From NCBI GenBank assembly GCA_016930635.1, contig JAFGGI010000037.1:1-52399 (forward strand): 52,399 nucleotides of DNA. Reading direction: 5' to 3'. Under the pieces are notes generated by a model. It made no database searches and had not been told where the DNA came from. It saw only the letters and a program-made list of their open reading frames with translations. Each line of letters begins with the position of its first letter. Position 1 is the stretch's first letter. The position numbers and the translations under genes were made by a program. Shown here piece after piece: positions 14,032 through 22,332 of this stretch. The stretch comes from Sedimentisphaerales bacterium (GTDB lineage: Bacteria > Planctomycetota > Phycisphaerae > Sedimentisphaerales > UBA12454).

Positions 14032-14500
14032 CGGCTACAATCTGCTAAGAGCTATAGAGAATTTCTCAGAGCATCCCGAACCTATTACCGATGTCCAGCT
14101 ATGTATGGTTTTAAGCAGATACCTTCTCCGCGTAAAAAAGAAAGGAACAATCGTCTTTGATGGCACAGGACCAAGAGATAAAGTAATTTTTAGAAACATA
14201 AGAAACCTCGAAGTGATATTTTCAGGTACGAGTCATGAAGCCGATGATATCATTGAAAAGCTAATACTGGAAAATACCGCACCGAAAAGGCTCGTCGTCG
14301 TCAGCAGTGACAGGAGAGTCAAAGCCGCTGCTAAAAAACGAAGGGCAACATCCATTAGCTCTTTAGATTTCTGGGAAGAAGTAATAAAACAGCTTGAAAA
14401 GAAAAGGAGAAAACCTGAGCCCCGCCAGAAGTTTTCAGGAATAAGCGAATTCGAAACAGACCTCTGGCTCAAAGAATTCGGCCTAAAAAAGGACACTTGA
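14021..14500 (+). CDS. NYN/PIN-like ribonuclease domain protein (YacP-like)
   Basis: A 159-residue protein starting VLIDGYNLLRA, the acidic-site signature of the NYN (YacP/DUF901) branch of PIN-like nucleases. Further conserved acidic positions are in FDGTGPRD, SHEADDIIEK and VVVSSDRRVK, where Asp residues would bind metal. The C-terminal third is Lys/Arg-rich. YacP homologues take part in RNA processing; the specific target here is unknown. Translation starts at a GTG with GCAGGA upstream, inside the last codons of pyrC. Placement between pyrC and aroA suggests cotranscription without implying a shared pathway. Confidence 0.85.
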   Translation: MLIDGYNLLRAIENFSEHPEPITDVQLCMVLSRYLLRVKKKGTIVFDGTGPRDKVIFRNIRNLEVIFSGTSHEADDIIEKLILENTAPKRLVVVSSDRRVKAAAKKRRATSISSLDFWEEVIKQLEKKRRKPEPRQKFSGISEFETDLWLKEFGLKKDT

Positions 14501-15810
14501 CCAAAACAAATCCTCCGAATACTATTGGCAATATGAAACTTATTGCGAAAAAATCCCGGTTAAGAGGCACTGTCGCCATCCCTACATCGAAGTCGCACAC
14601 TATACGCGCTGTCGCGATCGCCTCTCTGTCAGATGGAAAAAGTCTCATCAAAAATCCCCTTGCCTCAGGCGATACACTAAGCGCTGTAGATTGCTACAGG
14701 GCTTTAGGGGCCGATATAGACACAACAGATACCTCCTGCTGGATAGTTAAAGGAACGGCAGGCAAGATTATCCCGCCCGGCAAAATAATAGATATAGGTA
14801 ACTCCGGTACAAGTTTAAGGGTTGCCCTGGGCTCAGCAAGTCTTGCAACCCAAGGAGACAAGATAACCTTCACAGGTGACAAACAGATACAATCCCGACC
14901 GTTGGGACCCCTGCTGGATTCCCTTAATGATCTCGGAGCAAAGGCAAAATCGCTGAAGAATAACGGCTCTGCGCCGGTAGAGATAGAAGGCACACTGACT
15001 GGTGGAAAAACATCTATCAACTGTTTCACGAGCCAGTATCTAAGCAGCCTGCTGTTAGCGACACCTTTGGCTCAAAACAACAGCCAGATAGATGTAACGG
15101 TTCTTAACGAACCTGACTATGTGCAAATGACCCTGGACTGGTTGGACGCCCAGGGTATTGAATACGAGAATCAGGATTTTAAATGCCTCAAAGTCAAAGG
15201 CGGCCAGAAATACAAAGCCTTCGACAAAACTATACCTGCTGATTTCTCCAGCGCGACATTCTTCCTCTGCGCAGGCGCTATACTCGATGCCGATATAACA
15301 ATTACCGGCCTTGATTTCTCAGACAGCCAGCCCGACAAGGCTGTAGCTGATTACCTCAAACAAATGGGAGCGAAAATCGATATCACCGCCGAAGGTGTAC
15401 ATATAAAAACAAGCCAGTTAAAAGGCGCCGATATTGATATGAACCGAACGCCGGACGCTTTGCCCGCAATGGCTGTAACAGCGGCTATGGCCCAGGGTAC
15501 GACCACACTCGGCAACGTCCCCCAGGCCCGCGGCAAAGAGACCGACAGAATAACCTGTATGGCCCAGGAACTCACTAAATTAGGAATTAAAACCGAGGAA
15601 TTGCCTGACGGCCTTATCGTCCACGGCGGCAAACTTAAAGCAGCAAATCTGTCCGGCAGGGGCGACCACAGAATTGTTATGGCCCTGTCACTTGCAGCTA
15701 TGGCTCTGGATGAGCCTTGCGTTATCGATACGGCAGAGGCTATGAACGTCACTTTTCCCGACTATGTAAAGCTGATGAAATCCCTTGGCGCAAATATAGA
15801 GATAAAGTAG
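14497..15810 (+). CDS. aroA: 3-phosphoshikimate 1-carboxyvinyltransferase (EPSP synthase)
   Basis: It joins phosphoenolpyruvate to shikimate 3-phosphate in aromatic amino acid synthesis. Signature positions are visible: PTSKSHTIR (substrate Lys and Arg), GNSGTSLR (PEP loop), a PDALPAMAV block with the catalytic Asp, RGKETDRI (catalytic Glu and Arg) and GDHRIVMAL. At 430 or so residues it is full length. Two starts are possible: the TTG at 14497, overlapping the previous stop as TTGA with AAAGGA just upstream, or the ATG at 14533 (MKLIAKK), which fits the usual N-terminus but lacks a ribosome binding site. It is the last gene of the pyr-led transcript. Confidence 0.93.
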   Translation: MTKTNPPNTIGNMKLIAKKSRLRGTVAIPTSKSHTIRAVAIASLSDGKSLIKNPLASGDTLSAVDCYRALGADIDTTDTSCWIVKGTAGKIIPPGKIIDIGNSGTSLRVALGSASLATQGDKITFTGDKQIQSRPLGPLLDSLNDLGAKAKSLKNNGSAPVEIEGTLTGGKTSINCFTSQYLSSLLLATPLAQNNSQIDVTVLNEPDYVQMTLDWLDAQGIEYENQDFKCLKVKGGQKYKAFDKTIPADFSSATFFLCAGAILDADITITGLDFSDSQPDKAVADYLKQMGAKIDITAEGVHIKTSQLKGADIDMNRTPDALPAMAVTAAMAQGTTTLGNVPQARGKETDRITCMAQELTKLGIKTEELPDGLIVHGGKLKAANLSGRGDHRIVMALSLAAMALDEPCVIDTAEAMNVTFPDYVKLMKSLGANIEIK

Positions 15811-16080: not shown

Positions 16081-17979
16081 ATGTTAAAGCAAGATATAAA
16101 AACAATCCTTTTCTTACTCGTTGCACTTACTCTTATGACAACTACCGCTTTTGCTGCGGACGGTTGGGCAAGTCAAGGCGGCGGCACAACCGGCGGACAA
16201 GGCGGCACGACAGTTACTGTCAACAATGCTGCAGACTTCATTCTCTACGCACAGGATTCTGGACAAGACCCCTACATCATTCAGGTAAGCGGCAACATCA
16301 CTCTGCCCAGCACAAACATCCGTGTCCGTGGCAACAAGACGGTCATAGGCCTGCCGGGATCGCATATCAGCGGCAATCTCAAATGCTACCGCCTCGAGGA
16401 GAGCAACAACATCTTCAAGAATCTGGACATGGACAACTACGACAAGGTCGGAGATGGGGACTGCATCAGCCTTGACAGCGTCAATAACATTTGGATCGAC
16501 CACTGCACGTTTACTGATGGCGGCGACGGCAATGTCGATATCAAGAACGGCTCGGACTATATCACCATCTCCTGGTGCATATTCCAGTACACCTACGACA
16601 GCGGCCACAATTTCAGCAACCTCATCGGACATAGCGACGATAACGGCAGCATAGACAGCGGCCATCTCCTTGTCACTTTTCATCACAACTGGTGGTACAC
16701 ATTGTCCCATGAAAGAATGCCTCGTGTCCGTTTCGGCCAGGTCCACGTCTACAACAACTACTATGACTGCCCGGGCAACAATTACTGCATCCGCGCATGT
16801 ATAGGCTCGCAATTGCTTATCGAAAGCAACTATTTCGATTCAGTAAAAGACCCTTATTATGTCTATGTTACGACCGGCACCGATGGACAAATAGAGGCAT
16901 CCGACAATGTTTTTAATAACTGTACCGGTTTGATCGACCCGGGTACGGACAATGTATTTACCCCGCCATATTCCTACACACTCGATGACCCTTATGCTGT
17001 TCCGGGCATTGTAATGGCAGGAGCCGGCACCGGCAGCGGCGGCGATACAACACCGCCGGCAGCACCGACCGGTCTTGCTGCTGTCGCTGGTAATGGTACT
17101 GTCAGTCTCGACTGGGACGACAACGGCGAAAGCGACCTTGACGGTTATAATGTATATCGCTCGACCAGTTCCGGCAGCGGTTATAGCAGATTAAACGGTT
17201 CGCTCTTGAGTACTTCGGATTATGTGGACAACACAGTTACTAACGGCACAACTTATTATTATGTAGTTACAGCAGTAGATACATCAAGTAACGAAAGTAC
17301 TTACAGCGATGAAGCTTCTGCGACCCCGCAAGGCAGCCCGGCCCAATACATGCATGTCGATTCCATAGAACTCGACGGTATTTCCTGCGCCCCGGCACAA
17401 GAAACTGGGCAGGCAATAGTAACCATACATGATGAATATGGCGACCCTGTTGTCGGCGCCTTAGTAGATGGTATGTTCAGCGGTGATTTTGACGACGTTA
17501 TACTCGACCAGGTAACTGATGCCTCCGGCCAGGCGGTATTTACAGCATCAGGTTGCCTCAAAAAACCAAGCTTTTCGTTTTGCGTCAGTGATGTAACACA
17601 CGCCACACTGACCTATGATGAAGCTTCTAACACGCCGGGCACATCCTGCGGCGGAGGTCCTTGTACTCCAACAGAAGTATATGTAGAAGCAATTGACCCT
17701 GGTACCATCAGCTGCGGCGGAGCCAATAAAAATGGACAGGTAACTGTAACTATCTATGATGATTGTGGTAATCCTATAGCTGGAGCTTTGGTGGACGGTA
17801 CTTTCACAGGCGATTTCGATGACGTCTTCGTCGACGAGGTAACCGACACTAACGGCCAAGCGGTATTTACATCAACAGGCTGTATCAAGAAGCCAAGCTA
17901 TACATTCTGCGTTGATGATGTAACTGCCGCCCTGCCTTATAACTCTGCAAACAACGTAGAGACCTGCGATAGTAATTAA
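16081..17979 (+). CDS. Secreted multidomain pectate lyase, PL1 family, with FN3 and two tandem C-terminal domains
   Basis: The enzyme cleaves pectate by beta-elimination outside the cell. Domains in order are a signal peptide (1-25, ending TAFA^ADGW); a PL1 beta-helix (about 40-290) with NNIWIDHCTF (WIDH near 138), DGNVDIKNGSDYITISW and HERMPRVRFG (about 209-218, the RxPxxR catalytic Arg region); a fibronectin type III domain (about 324-415); and two homologous units of about 100 residues (about 422-520 and 530-630), each with GDFDDV, QAVFT and GC(L/I)KKPS. The tandem units look like Ig-like or anchoring modules. Codon use is richer in GC than in neighbouring leaders. A strong AAGGAGG precedes the ATG. 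Likely a substrate of the Gsp system encoded at the right end, which is an inference. Confidence 0.9.
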   Translation: MLKQDIKTILFLLVALTLMTTTAFAADGWASQGGGTTGGQGGTTVTVNNAADFILYAQDSGQDPYIIQVSGNITLPSTNIRVRGNKTVIGLPGSHISGNLKCYRLEESNNIFKNLDMDNYDKVGDGDCISLDSVNNIWIDHCTFTDGGDGNVDIKNGSDYITISWCIFQYTYDSGHNFSNLIGHSDDNGSIDSGHLLVTFHHNWWYTLSHERMPRVRFGQVHVYNNYYDCPGNNYCIRACIGSQLLIESNYFDSVKDPYYVYVTTGTDGQIEASDNVFNNCTGLIDPGTDNVFTPPYSYTLDDPYAVPGIVMAGAGTGSGGDTTPPAAPTGLAAVAGNGTVSLDWDDNGESDLDGYNVYRSTSSGSGYSRLNGSLLSTSDYVDNTVTNGTTYYYVVTAVDTSSNESTYSDEASATPQGSPAQYMHVDSIELDGISCAPAQETGQAIVTIHDEYGDPVVGALVDGMFSGDFDDVILDQVTDASGQAVFTASGCLKKPSFSFCVSDVTHATLTYDEASNTPGTSCGGGPCTPTEVYVEAIDPGTISCGGANKNGQVTVTIYDDCGNPIAGALVDGTFTGDFDDVFVDEVTDTNGQAVFTSTGCIKKPSYTFCVDDVTAALPYNSANNVETCDSN

Positions 17980-17999: not shown

Positions 18000-18039
18000 T
18001 TATCGAACGTCCCAGGTGCAAACCTGGGACGTTCGATAA
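18000..18039. terminator. Very stable 18-bp hairpin with GCAA tetraloop after the pectate lyase gene
   Basis: TATCGAACGTCCCAGGT (18001-18017) and ACCTGGGACGTTCGATA (18022-18038) are perfect complements closed by GCAA, a GNRA tetraloop; T18000/A18039 extends the stem. Only a weak T-rich stretch follows (AATTTGTCTT), so it may act as a terminator, an mRNA 3'-end protector or both. Confidence 0.7.
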
Positions 18040-18112
18040 ATTTGTCTTGAAATTTCCTACTAAAACACTTATACTTCTCTGGCTAATTAACCATAAGATT
18101 AGGAGATATATA

Positions 18113-19441
18113 ATGTTAGGTTGTCATTTTGGCAGAATGTTTCAGGTAACCGGCGGCGGCGGCTCATACCAGGATGGTTTGAGCATTATCGTCCAGGGGC
18201 TCCCTCCTGCTATGGCGGTAACAGAACAGGAAATCTACGGCGATTTGCTCCTGCGAAAGCCGGGCTCGGATGAATTGAGCTCACCCCGCAAAGAGCCTGA
18301 TTTGCCGATAATTTACACCGGCGTCAATGCTGCCGATACCGTAGAAAATGCCGGCAATAAGGGTCTGACAAACGGCACACCGCTGACTGTCCTTATTCCC
18401 AACCTCGACAGGCATTTCATCCATATCAAGCAGTATCAGGACACAAATCGGACCCCTCGGCCCGGACACGCTTCCTACGCCTCATTTATGAAGTACGGGC
18501 CCGCCGACGACGCTATCGGCGCAGGACTGTTCAGCGGCAGGTATTCGTCCACAATCGTCTCGGCAGGTTATCTGGCCAAGAAAGTACTCAAAAAATGCGG
18601 CATAGAGGTCTTCAGTTATGTAAAAGAGCTCGCCTCAGTCCGCTGCGGGGACGTTGACAGCTCTAAAGCCCTGAAATATACAGAAAACTACAAACAAATG
18701 AGGCGGGATTACGATGCCTTCTACCAGGAAATATATGTAAAGGGCAGGATAACAGGTGAGATGCGATTCCTTGAAAAAATGGCTGTCCTGGCCCAGGTAG
18801 AAAAAGAAATCGATAAGATTCGCGATAAGGCACCAAAGATGGATGCTGCTAAAATCAAGGACAAATACGGCGTACATCACATTCTCAACTGCCCGGATAT
18901 AAAGGCGGCAGAGGAAATGGTACAGGCCTGCAATAAAATCTCCGCAGGCGGCGATTCGGCAGGCGGCGTTGTAAAAGTTATCGTTAAAGGTGTTCCTGCA
19001 GGCCTTGGCGAGCCTATCTTCGATAAGCTCGACGCTGAGCTTGGAAAAATGCTCGGAATCGGAGCCATTAAAGGCGTCGAAGTCGGCGCAGGCTTCGCCG
19101 TAAAGGATATGACCGGTTCTCAATCCAACGACCAGATGCATTCCGAGAACGGCAAGGTGGTATTTGACTCAAACAATGCCGGCGGTATCACCGGCGGCCT
19201 GTCAACAGGACAGGATATTGTCGTCAGGCTGGCTGTAAAGCCGACACCTACTATTGATAAAGAACAGCACACAATCGACAAATATACGCTTGAGAACAAA
19301 ACGCTGGCTGCAATTACACGAAGAGATGCAACAATTGTTGCAAGAGTCTGGCCGGTAGCAGAAAATTACACCGCAATGGTTATTCTGGATAGCCTGATGG
19401 CCTATTACGGCTATGAAACAGTAAAGCAGAAGTTTGCTTAA
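18113..19441 (+). CDS. aroC: Chorismate synthase homologue with altered active-site signatures
   Basis: The canonical enzyme converts EPSP to chorismate using reduced FMN. This 442-residue protein keeps the second family signature (GLFSGRYSSTIVSAGYL, about 138-154), the RPGHA block (His119), and NNAGGITGGLSTGQDIV near the end. The first signature, normally GESHG, reads GGSYQ (Tyr19 at the His position), and the third, normally RHDPC, reads RRDAT (403-407). An extra helical stretch of roughly 80 residues (about 190-280) makes it longer than the usual 360. The start is the ATG at 18113, seven bases after AGGAGA; an upstream in-frame ATG at 18047 overlaps the hairpin region and is less likely. 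It may be a divergent chorismate synthase or a paralogue with another role. Confidence 0.78.
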   Translation: MLGCHFGRMFQVTGGGGSYQDGLSIIVQGLPPAMAVTEQEIYGDLLLRKPGSDELSSPRKEPDLPIIYTGVNAADTVENAGNKGLTNGTPLTVLIPNLDRHFIHIKQYQDTNRTPRPGHASYASFMKYGPADDAIGAGLFSGRYSSTIVSAGYLAKKVLKKCGIEVFSYVKELASVRCGDVDSSKALKYTENYKQMRRDYDAFYQEIYVKGRITGEMRFLEKMAVLAQVEKEIDKIRDKAPKMDAAKIKDKYGVHHILNCPDIKAAEEMVQACNKISAGGDSAGGVVKVIVKGVPAGLGEPIFDKLDAELGKMLGIGAIKGVEVGAGFAVKDMTGSQSNDQMHSENGKVVFDSNNAGGITGGLSTGQDIVVRLAVKPTPTIDKEQHTIDKYTLENKTLAAITRRDATIVARVWPVAENYTAMVILDSLMAYYGYETVKQKFA

Positions 19442-19515: not shown

Positions 19516-22332
19516 TTACTCCAGAGGAGCAAAGTATTCACGTTCTGATTCCTGCTGCAATATAATAGCAGGTTTAACAAGAACCAGCAGTACATCCTGG
19601 TCTTTTACCTGACTGCGGGTGCTGAATAATCTTCCAAGAAGCGGCACTTTTGAAACAACCGGAACACCCGATTCTTTATTGACTTCAGCGCCAAGCTTCT
19701 GCCCGCCGATCAGTAAGGTTCCGCCATCCGGCACACTCACGCGAGTCTGAAGCTCAGAAACCTGTCTGGTAGGAAGCGAAATAGGATACTCATAACCTTG
19801 TGTATCGGTAACTGTATAAGGGTCAAGAGCAGCTTTTGTAAAACTGGTACCAATCTGAAGAATAACATATTTTTTGTCCGCAGTTATTGTAGGTGTTACA
19901 TTAAGAACAACACCATCAGCAGTAATGTCAATCGTAACATCGGCCGCAACCCTTACAACGCTACTGGAAGCATCTGTGCCTGTAGCTGTTATATCCTCAA
20001 ATTCATAATCTGATACATAAGAATGCTCTGTAATGACTCTCATATAAGCTGATTCACCGCTAAGGACCGTAACTCTCGGGGCAGTAAGTACTCTTGCATC
20101 ACTATGGGCCTGTGTTGCCCTCAGGAAAAACGAAACGGCTAAATCATCAAGAACCGCGCCTCCGAGCCCACCATATAAGCCTCCGCCGAGAAGCGATGCC
20201 ACAACAGCAGTAGGATCGGTAACATTCTTGACAAGATTGCCTGAAATAGACGTATCCGTTGGCCTGGTATGAGCAGCTGTATCAAAGTCAAAAAGCAGCG
20301 AACTAATATTATCATGAATCTTTCCCTGCGGCACATATATCTGATCAATACCTAAACCAATATCTTCAAGGAAGTTTTCAGTAACAAACAAAAACCTGGC
20401 TTCTATAGAAACCTGCTGGCCGAGCGATTCACGCAAGTCTTCCAGCAGCAATTTCTGGATTTGTTCGTGGATTTGAGGCGTCTGGTTTATCACAAGTCTT
20501 CTTCCATGATTACTGATTGTGCCCTCTCCGCCGTTGATCAACCAACTCATCGGAGCTATCGTATTCTGTATCATTTCCATCACAAGAGGAATAGTTAATT
20601 CAGCACCTTCTATTTCCTGGTCTGATTCCTGTGTACCACCGCTAGAACCTGAAGCACTTTCTCCTGTCTGCAGATCTGTTTCATAATTGGCAGGTATACC
20701 AACAAGTTCGGTAATATCATAGACGTGCGTGACCAGTTTAGGTGGAAGAGATTCTGCTGTCGCTATGGTTATAATACCTTCTTCGATAGCAAAATCTATA
20801 TCTGTAATACCCCCGGAGACTGTACTGAGCAATTCCTTTAAGGCCTTTCCAAGAGGTATTCCCGCAAGACCCTGCATGCCTGAAAGCGTATCAGGTTCTA
20901 TATATGCATTTTCCTCAAGGTCTTTCCATCGCACAACAATCTTCAATGGCGGTTCCACAGAGATTTTTATCGTCTCTATAGCCTCATCAAAGGGCATATC
21001 CGGCGTAAGAGCTGTCAAATCAACAAGACTGTTAAGCTGTTCGTAAACTGCGGCATCAGCTTCTGAAAGACCCGTAATCATTGTTGGTTTTCTTTTAGCA
21101 GCTATATCCTGCCAGTTTCTCGGATAAGTCATCAGGTCGGCATGAGGGATCATAGACCTTTGATTTTCGTATAAAATATTCTGCTCTTCGCGCCCTATTT
21201 CTTTTTTCACTTCAAGCTGTCTGCGAAGATTAATAATATCTTCAAGCATCTGTTTGGTCCTCTTGGCTTCTCTATTCGTCGGCTCAATGGCTAAAAGTGT
21301 CTCGATCTGGGCCAGTGCTTCTTCGTATCTCTGCTGTTCCTGATACTCCGCTGAGTGCTTCATAAGGTCGCTGATCCTTCTGGCTCTGTCAGCAGACTGT
21401 TGATTTCTAAGCATTTCCTGAGTAGCCTGGGCTTCAGCTTTTGCTGTTTCGACATTACGGCGTTCAACTTCAATCTGGCGTGCATCCATTTCATCCAACA
21501 GCTGCTGCAAAGAAGCCTTATACTGCTCATAATCGGTATCACCAAGCAAAAGTCTGTTCTTTTCAACAGCACTTTGAGCCCGGGCAATTTCATCTTTTGC
21601 CTTGACGAAATCTTCGCCGGCAATATATGCCTTTGCATTCTCAATGGCTTCATTTACCACAGCTTTTATATAGCTTTGCTGGATGCTTCGTTTTTGCTTT
21701 ACAACCTCAATATAATCCTGCTTTGCGCCTTCCATTACAGGAGCCTGGGCCGGCTGATATGTCTCGACCTGATATTCCTGTTCGAGGGCAGGAGCCGGAG
21801 AAATATATTCCGGCAGAATTTCAATTTCTTCAACAACTATAGGACTCTGGCCTGCTGCCTCAATATCGGCAGGTTCTACCGGAGCAAATTCTATGTATTC
21901 GGTATCGACACCCGGCTGAGTTGATGTTGTTTCTTCAACAACCTGTTGATCGACAACCTGCTTCTCAACAACCTGATGTTCGACAAATTGCTTCTCGACA
22001 ACCTGATGTTCGACAATAACCGGTGCCTGAACACTCTGGCCCGGCTGGGCATGCAGTTTCTTAAGCAGCTCGTCAAGTTTACTTGCATCAGCAATACTTA
22101 GATACTGCCTGTATTGGGCAGCTTTGCCAAGGGTTTGTCTTGCGCCATCATACATCCCCCTTTTATATTGTTCATAACCAACGTCAAGCAACTGCTTGCC
22201 TGCCTGACGAAGGGTCTGCACTTTTACGGTAACTTCATCCGCTGCAAAAACTGGGGCGATCACCGGCAAAGAAATTAATAAAACTAGTACAACACCTATA
22301 AGTAACTTCGCTCGAGATATACCAATAGTCAC
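19516..22332 (-). CDS. gspD: Type II/IV secretion secretin with long N-terminal repeat and coiled-coil region
   Basis: An outer-membrane ring protein of 938 residues. A signal peptide (1-31, ending VFAA) is followed by a helical TPR-like part, a repeat region (about 105-135) of units like VEHQVVEKQ, a long charged coiled coil (about 210-400), a middle periplasmic part with AIETIKISVEPPLKIVV, and the secretin domain (about 640-925) with VPDGGTLLIGGQ and VPLLGRLFS. The start is GTG with AGGAG 7 bases upstream. Most secretins are 600-750 residues, so the N-terminal extension is unusual. The gspE-M operon lacks a secretin gene in this window, so this is the likely partner; a type IV pilus role is the alternative. 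Confidence 0.85.
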   Translation of the reverse strand: MTIGISRAKLLIGVVLVLLISLPVIAPVFAADEVTVKVQTLRQAGKQLLDVGYEQYKRGMYDGARQTLGKAAQYRQYLSIADASKLDELLKKLHAQPGQSVQAPVIVEHQVVEKQFVEHQVVEKQVVDQQVVEETTSTQPGVDTEYIEFAPVEPADIEAAGQSPIVVEEIEILPEYISPAPALEQEYQVETYQPAQAPVMEGAKQDYIEVVKQKRSIQQSYIKAVVNEAIENAKAYIAGEDFVKAKDEIARAQSAVEKNRLLLGDTDYEQYKASLQQLLDEMDARQIEVERRNVETAKAEAQATQEMLRNQQSADRARRISDLMKHSAEYQEQQRYEEALAQIETLLAIEPTNREAKRTKQMLEDIINLRRQLEVKKEIGREEQNILYENQRSMIPHADLMTYPRNWQDIAAKRKPTMITGLSEADAAVYEQLNSLVDLTALTPDMPFDEAIETIKISVEPPLKIVVRWKDLEENAYIEPDTLSGMQGLAGIPLGKALKELLSTVSGGITDIDFAIEEGIITIATAESLPPKLVTHVYDITELVGIPANYETDLQTGESASGSSGGTQESDQEIEGAELTIPLVMEMIQNTIAPMSWLINGGEGTISNHGRRLVINQTPQIHEQIQKLLLEDLRESLGQQVSIEARFLFVTENFLEDIGLGIDQIYVPQGKIHDNISSLLFDFDTAAHTRPTDTSISGNLVKNVTDPTAVVASLLGGGLYGGLGGAVLDDLAVSFFLRATQAHSDARVLTAPRVTVLSGESAYMRVITEHSYVSDYEFEDITATGTDASSSVVRVAADVTIDITADGVVLNVTPTITADKKYVILQIGTSFTKAALDPYTVTDTQGYEYPISLPTRQVSELQTRVSVPDGGTLLIGGQKLGAEVNKESGVPVVSKVPLLGRLFSTRSQVKDQDVLLVLVKPAIILQQESEREYFAPLE
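21930..22015 (-). repeat. Tandem coding repeat in the secretin gene (VEHQVVEKQ units)
   Basis: Units of about 21-24 bases of the form CAACCTGATGTTCGACAA repeat four to five times in the plus-strand reading. They encode alternating V-E-H-Q-V-V-E-K-Q/V-V-D-Q-Q units in the secretin. Such repeats can change copy number. Confidence 0.75.

Follow-up and report, generated by a model that had tools for sequence, protein, structure and literature searches.

A probable chorismate synthase of a distinct tyrosine-type clade in a Sedimentisphaerales bacterium

Results

The aroC-like gene and its neighbourhood

The stretch of DNA analysed here (the window; 52,399 nucleotides of contig JAFGGI010000037.1 from a Sedimentisphaerales bacterium) carries on its forward strand, at positions 18,113 to 19,441, an aroC-like gene for a protein of 442 residues that we term a Tyr-type chorismate synthase homologue. 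Chorismate synthase catalyses a step that is universal on the way to aromatic amino acids; the enzyme has been studied as a drug target, and its two active-site histidines are described as invariant. The open reading frame is genuine, beginning with an ATG at 18,113 and closing with a stop codon at 19,441 with no in-frame stop between them. A Shine-Dalgarno-like AGGAG, seen on inspection of the sequence, lies 7 nt 5' of the ATG (18,101 to 18,105, forward strand), and a promoter-like TTGAAA-17-TATACT, a pattern match only, is located upstream of the gene (18,047 to 18,075, forward strand).

The preceding step of the pathway is encoded by aroA, which occupies positions 14,497 to 15,810 of the same strand and whose product, EPSP synthase, scores 396 bits against TIGR01356 (cut-off 287). 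The original prediction had placed aroA three kilobases upstream; it does lie on the same strand, but it ends 2.3 kb from the aroC-like gene, and the pair is split by a gene for a pectate-lyase-like secreted protein (16,081 to 17,979, forward strand), assigned by inspection of its translation and giving no equivalog match. Among 96 loci, aroA lies directly upstream of the aroC-like gene, on the same strand and within about 200 bp, in 40, and inside the examined flank in 59. Between the pectate-lyase-like gene and aroC, a sequence scan revealed an 18-bp perfect hairpin (18,000 to 18,039, forward strand), a possible terminator; other terminator-like sites in the region are far weaker. Convergent with aroC, a reverse-strand gene (19,516 to 22,332) encodes a secretin-family protein that is MshL/PilQ/GspD-like with scores below the curated cut-offs; secretin homologues lie near the aroC-like gene in 19 of 80 loci.

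Family membership, predicted fold and selection

PF01264 is the only Pfam match of the protein and is matched over its full length (306.5 bits over positions 1-327, cut-off 27). The TIGR00033 aroC profile gives 302.3 bits, above its cut-off of 212.2, and NF003793 is narrowly missed (315 against 321). Identity to E. coli AroC is about 33%. An AlphaFold model compared with known structures retrieved chorismate synthases only (28 chains with E < 0.001), with DALI-like Z scores of 23.8 to 28.3 for these and 3.9 for the next unrelated match. The confidence of the model is modest (pLDDT 72), and loops 100-139 and 326-365 are poor, so that the active-site loops are unreliable; the overall fold predicted by the model is that of a chorismate synthase. 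Judged by profile, predicted fold and most catalytic features, the protein is a member of PF01264, one that departs from the family in the GESHG histidine, and the signature-based family definition needs widening.

The codon positions differ at 52-63% of third positions and at 11-13% of first and second positions, which indicates strong purifying selection, and the reading frame is intact across the homologues, with no stops. A degenerate, pseudogene-like AroC, or a sequencing or assembly error at the GESHG codon, would account for the departure from the signature taken alone, but the same residues in 94 of 94 independent homologues, together with this selection and the intact frames, leave that explanation with a negligible chance, and we reject it. 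A plasmid or phage origin was also considered and rejected: the best plasmid relative is only about 33% identical, and the long form is absent from viral contigs, where the two AroC sequences found were both canonical.

Residues that set the Tyr-type enzymes apart

Residues 16-20 of the protein read GGSYQ, as the original prediction had noted, and align without gaps to the GESHG or GESHC of solved enzymes. Tyr19 (codon 18,167 to 18,169, forward strand) thereby falls on the histidine of the signature, which is His10 of the S. pneumoniae enzyme and His17 of the fungal enzymes. The middle signature SGRYSSTIV, the GGITGGLSTG block and the histidine of RPGHA are all retained, again as first described. 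The last of these, His119 (codon 18,467 to 18,469, forward strand), occupies the position of His110 (fungal His106) and is kept in 94 of 94 long homologues, as are the equivalents of Asp339, Arg337, Arg107, Arg134 and the proton-relay serines Ser9 and Ser132 (here Ser18 and Ser141). His10 is thus the sole one of the known catalytic residues to be replaced in the long form. For S. pneumoniae residues beyond those of the papers cited below, the site-lining positions are those of the 1QXO structure, with the numbering checked against the 1QXO sequence.

The C-terminal signature reads RRD (Arg403-Arg404-Asp405; 19,319 to 19,327, forward strand) in place of RHD. This departure is real, although it carries less weight than originally implied: Arg403 and Asp405, the equivalents of Arg337 and the catalytic Asp339, are unchanged, and the change is minor because solved enzymes have RSD (S. 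pneumoniae 1QXO and Bifidobacterium 4ECD) or RTD (Aquifex 1Q1L). The RHD histidine was accordingly rejected as a lost catalytic residue. Three other columns, 139, 144 and 148, are almost always Arg, Glu and Arg in canonical planctomycete AroC and are Leu or Ile, Tyr and Ile in the long form; with these near-invariant charged residues lost, the substrate site would therefore be remodelled beyond one residue.

The roughly 80 extra residues reported in the middle of the protein were found at about 178-257 (18,644 to 18,883, forward strand). The insert is predicted with high confidence to be helical and is conserved, with Lys, Arg and Tyr residues that never vary; no canonical sequence has it, and neither do the short Tyr-type relatives described below. 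Two smaller segments are also inserted, at about 73-83 and at about 101-104. His104 (codon 18,422 to 18,424, forward strand), invariant in Tyr-type enzymes, is carried by the latter, in a loop that reads DRHFIHIKQY in the long form and exceeds its counterpart in canonical AroC by 3-4 residues.

Conservation, phylogeny and distribution

In a first alignment of 94 long homologues with 41 canonical planctomycete AroC sequences, residue 19 was Tyr and residue 404 was Arg in every long form, and both positions were His in every canonical sequence. An enlarged set held 90 distinct long forms, four short relatives (L042, L043, L147 and L148, from planctomycete MAGs) and 49 canonical sequences. Here Tyr19, His104 and RRD occurred together in 90/90 long and 4/4 short forms, and none of the 49 canonical sequences had any of the three. 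The suggestion that GGSY might be fixed in a clade is borne out, and Tyr19 and RRD are shared by every long homologue in both alignments. The short relatives have GESYG, ITRRD(I/P)T and a loop of the form NxDxxxxHxxxY; they retain the canonical arginines and have no 80-residue insert, and two of them (L042 and L147) also lie directly behind aroA. In sequence these enzymes look like a state preceding the rise of the long form.

In an IQ-TREE phylogeny a branch with 100/99 support separates the Tyr-type enzymes, long and short, from the rest, and another with 100/100 support sets the long form apart on a stem of 2.21 changes per site. When proteobacterial AroC sequences were added, a FastTree phylogeny kept the Tyr-type group together with support 1.0. 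Since the group stays together in both trees, the simplest reading would be that the His-to-Tyr change arose once, with the position of the root and the exact sister unsure.

Long-form sequences of 72-77% identity are present in records with the titles Chitinivibrionales, Chitinispirillaceae, Fibrobacter, Raymondbacteria, Spirochaetales, Lentisphaerae and Victivallales (L093, L103, L105, L106, L116, L117, L127, L129, L132, L096, L100 and L112), suggesting transfer of the long form between phyla. In these records aroA is usually not adjacent to it.

Replacement of canonical AroC

A second canonical AroC in the genome would have argued against a shikimate role. None was found in the 2.45-Mb, 96% complete genome to which the window belongs, nor any second AroC in the closed chromosomes CP070728, CP070675 and CP070806, which carry this form only, and a shikimate role remains strongly favoured. 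Each of these four genomes encodes two chorismate-using PF00425 enzymes and a prephenate dehydratase.

When profile score and span were used to distinguish the AroC forms of 59 relatives, 37 had this form only, 11 a short form only (nine canonical and two GESYG), seven both and two neither, and two were unresolved fragments. The two forms tend to exclude one another, with a Fisher P of 1e-5, a value of a kind that relatedness inflates. Within genus g5, whose five genomes are all 98-99% complete, G157 and G325 have this form only, G209 and G261 the canonical form only, and G343 both. Thus, Tyr-type and canonical AroC replace each other among relatives, even inside one genus. In ten genomes the long form is accompanied by a canonical or second copy, which would allow the long form a separate role there. 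In several same-order relatives (L018, L037, L033 and others) canonical AroC forms the C-terminal half of a fusion protein of about 544 residues whose N-terminal part is a shikimate kinase; the long Tyr-type gene comes immediately after this fusion gene in G333 (L037).

Gaps in the shikimate pathway

In the window's own genome (G000) and the three closed chromosomes (G363, which is CP070728, G364 and G365), neither PF01202 nor the archaeal GHMP family gave a shikimate kinase above cut-off, and an archaeal-type GHMP kinase was rejected as the filler of this gap. The supply of EPSP in these four genomes is not fully explained, because the shikimate kinase goes unrecognised. PF01202 likewise recognised no shikimate kinase in 23 of the 37 long-form-only relatives, nor in the GESYG genomes G324 and G329, even though aroC and users of chorismate occur in these genomes; the archaeal GHMP family, where it was applied, gave none either. 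Because AroK is present in 14 other long-form-only relatives, the gap most plausibly reflects a kinase that escapes recognition and not some feature of the Tyr-type enzyme. DHQ synthase (PF01761) was not found in G363 and G333 despite the rest of the pathway.

Discussion

We conclude that the gene is very probably the functional chorismate synthase (EC 4.2.3.5) of its genome and belongs to a distinct, widespread Tyr-type clade, because it is the sole copy, is coupled to aroA and replaces canonical AroC among relatives, and because of its family, fold, conservation and purifying selection. The original prediction had left the choice between a clade-specific chorismate synthase and a paralogue with a different reaction; the first three of these observations, together with the fixation of GGSY in a clade, strongly favour the former.

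A paralogue would act on EPSP or on another substrate derived from shikimate, for example by a different elimination or in a side pathway, and chorismate would be made otherwise. In keeping with this, the phosphate-side histidine and several charged residues that are otherwise nearly invariant are lost, ten genomes hold both forms, and the stem branch is very long; the changes at 139, 144 and 148 together with that branch could reflect an altered substrate or reaction. Against it, the protein is the sole AroC homologue in closed chromosomes and in most relatives despite their chorismate users, chorismate has no other established route, the form exchanges with canonical AroC within a genus, and its gene lies next to aroA. 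On balance we regard a different reaction as improbable.

Bifunctional fungal chorismate synthases carry flavin reductase activity, and the insert might in principle add a second activity to a chorismate synthase, either this one or the missing shikimate kinase. Its size, its conserved helical character with invariant Lys, Arg and Tyr, and the many this-form-only genomes with no recognised kinase would suit such a role. However, the insert has no P-loop or nucleotide-binding motif, Pfam recognises PF01264 alone, other this-form-only genomes possess a separate AroK, and the insert-free GESYG genomes also have no recognised AroK, all of which makes a second activity very improbable.

In the enzymes already studied, flavin N1 receives its proton from His110 (fungal His106), whose replacement by Ala makes the enzyme 20-fold slower, and N5 is primed by Asp339 (fungal Asp367), mutants of which are 300-600-fold slower (PMC3509576). 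His17 lies close to the phosphate of EPSP and probably helps to protonate the leaving group (PMC7144000). In a Tyr-type chorismate synthase, reduced FMN and EPSP would be bound in the usual fold, with flavin and substrate held by Ser18, Ser141, Arg116, Arg143, Arg403 and Lys49/Arg48. His119 would protonate the reduced flavin, and Asp405 would prime flavin N5 for removal of the C6 proR hydrogen. Tyr19 would take the place of the histidine normally beside the leaving phosphate, whose departure may be helped by Tyr19 and/or the invariant His104 from the longer loop. The substitute for the phosphate-side histidine may be Tyr19, His104 or neither, and His104 is as good a candidate as Tyr19. That the enzyme is active, the roles given to its residues and the function of the insert, which is perhaps related to the oligomer or to flavin access, are our inferences.

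There is about an even chance that the Tyr-type enzymes are a second catalytic class, in which the Tyr19/His104 pair, in place of the histidine taken to be invariant, handles the leaving phosphate; the switch, loop and RRD would have arisen together once, and the long form would have spread across phyla and displaced canonical AroC. The enzyme family is already known, and what is new is the Tyr-type variant, an overlooked branch of chorismate synthase, on which searches of open-access papers on chorismate synthase (planctomycetes, Phycisphaerae, paralogues, non-orthologous replacement) yielded nothing. Motif-based searches for GESHG would miss such an enzyme or flag it as non-functional. Enzymes of this clade, which in many genomes are the only AroC and which have a covarying loop histidine, are natural test proteins for phosphate departure.

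The closest known systems are the canonical AroC enzymes (S. pneumoniae 1QXO, yeast and Candida Aro2 1R52/7RCA, and E. coli AroC), whose fold the window protein is predicted to have. Common to both are the equivalents of His110, Asp339, Arg337, Arg107, Arg134, Ser9 and Ser132, the GG(I/V)xGG flavin loop and the aroA-adjacent pathway context. In contrast to canonical AroC, the window protein has Tyr for the GESHG histidine, RRD for RHD, the insert of about 80 residues and a longer pre-RPGHA loop with an invariant His, and has lost the equivalents of Arg130, Glu135 and Arg139. The short Tyr-type relatives, 40-44% identical to it, resemble it in the Tyr at the GESH position, RRD and the loop histidine; unlike it, they keep the Glu and Gly of GES-YG, the canonical arginines and a GRETxxR motif, and have no insert.
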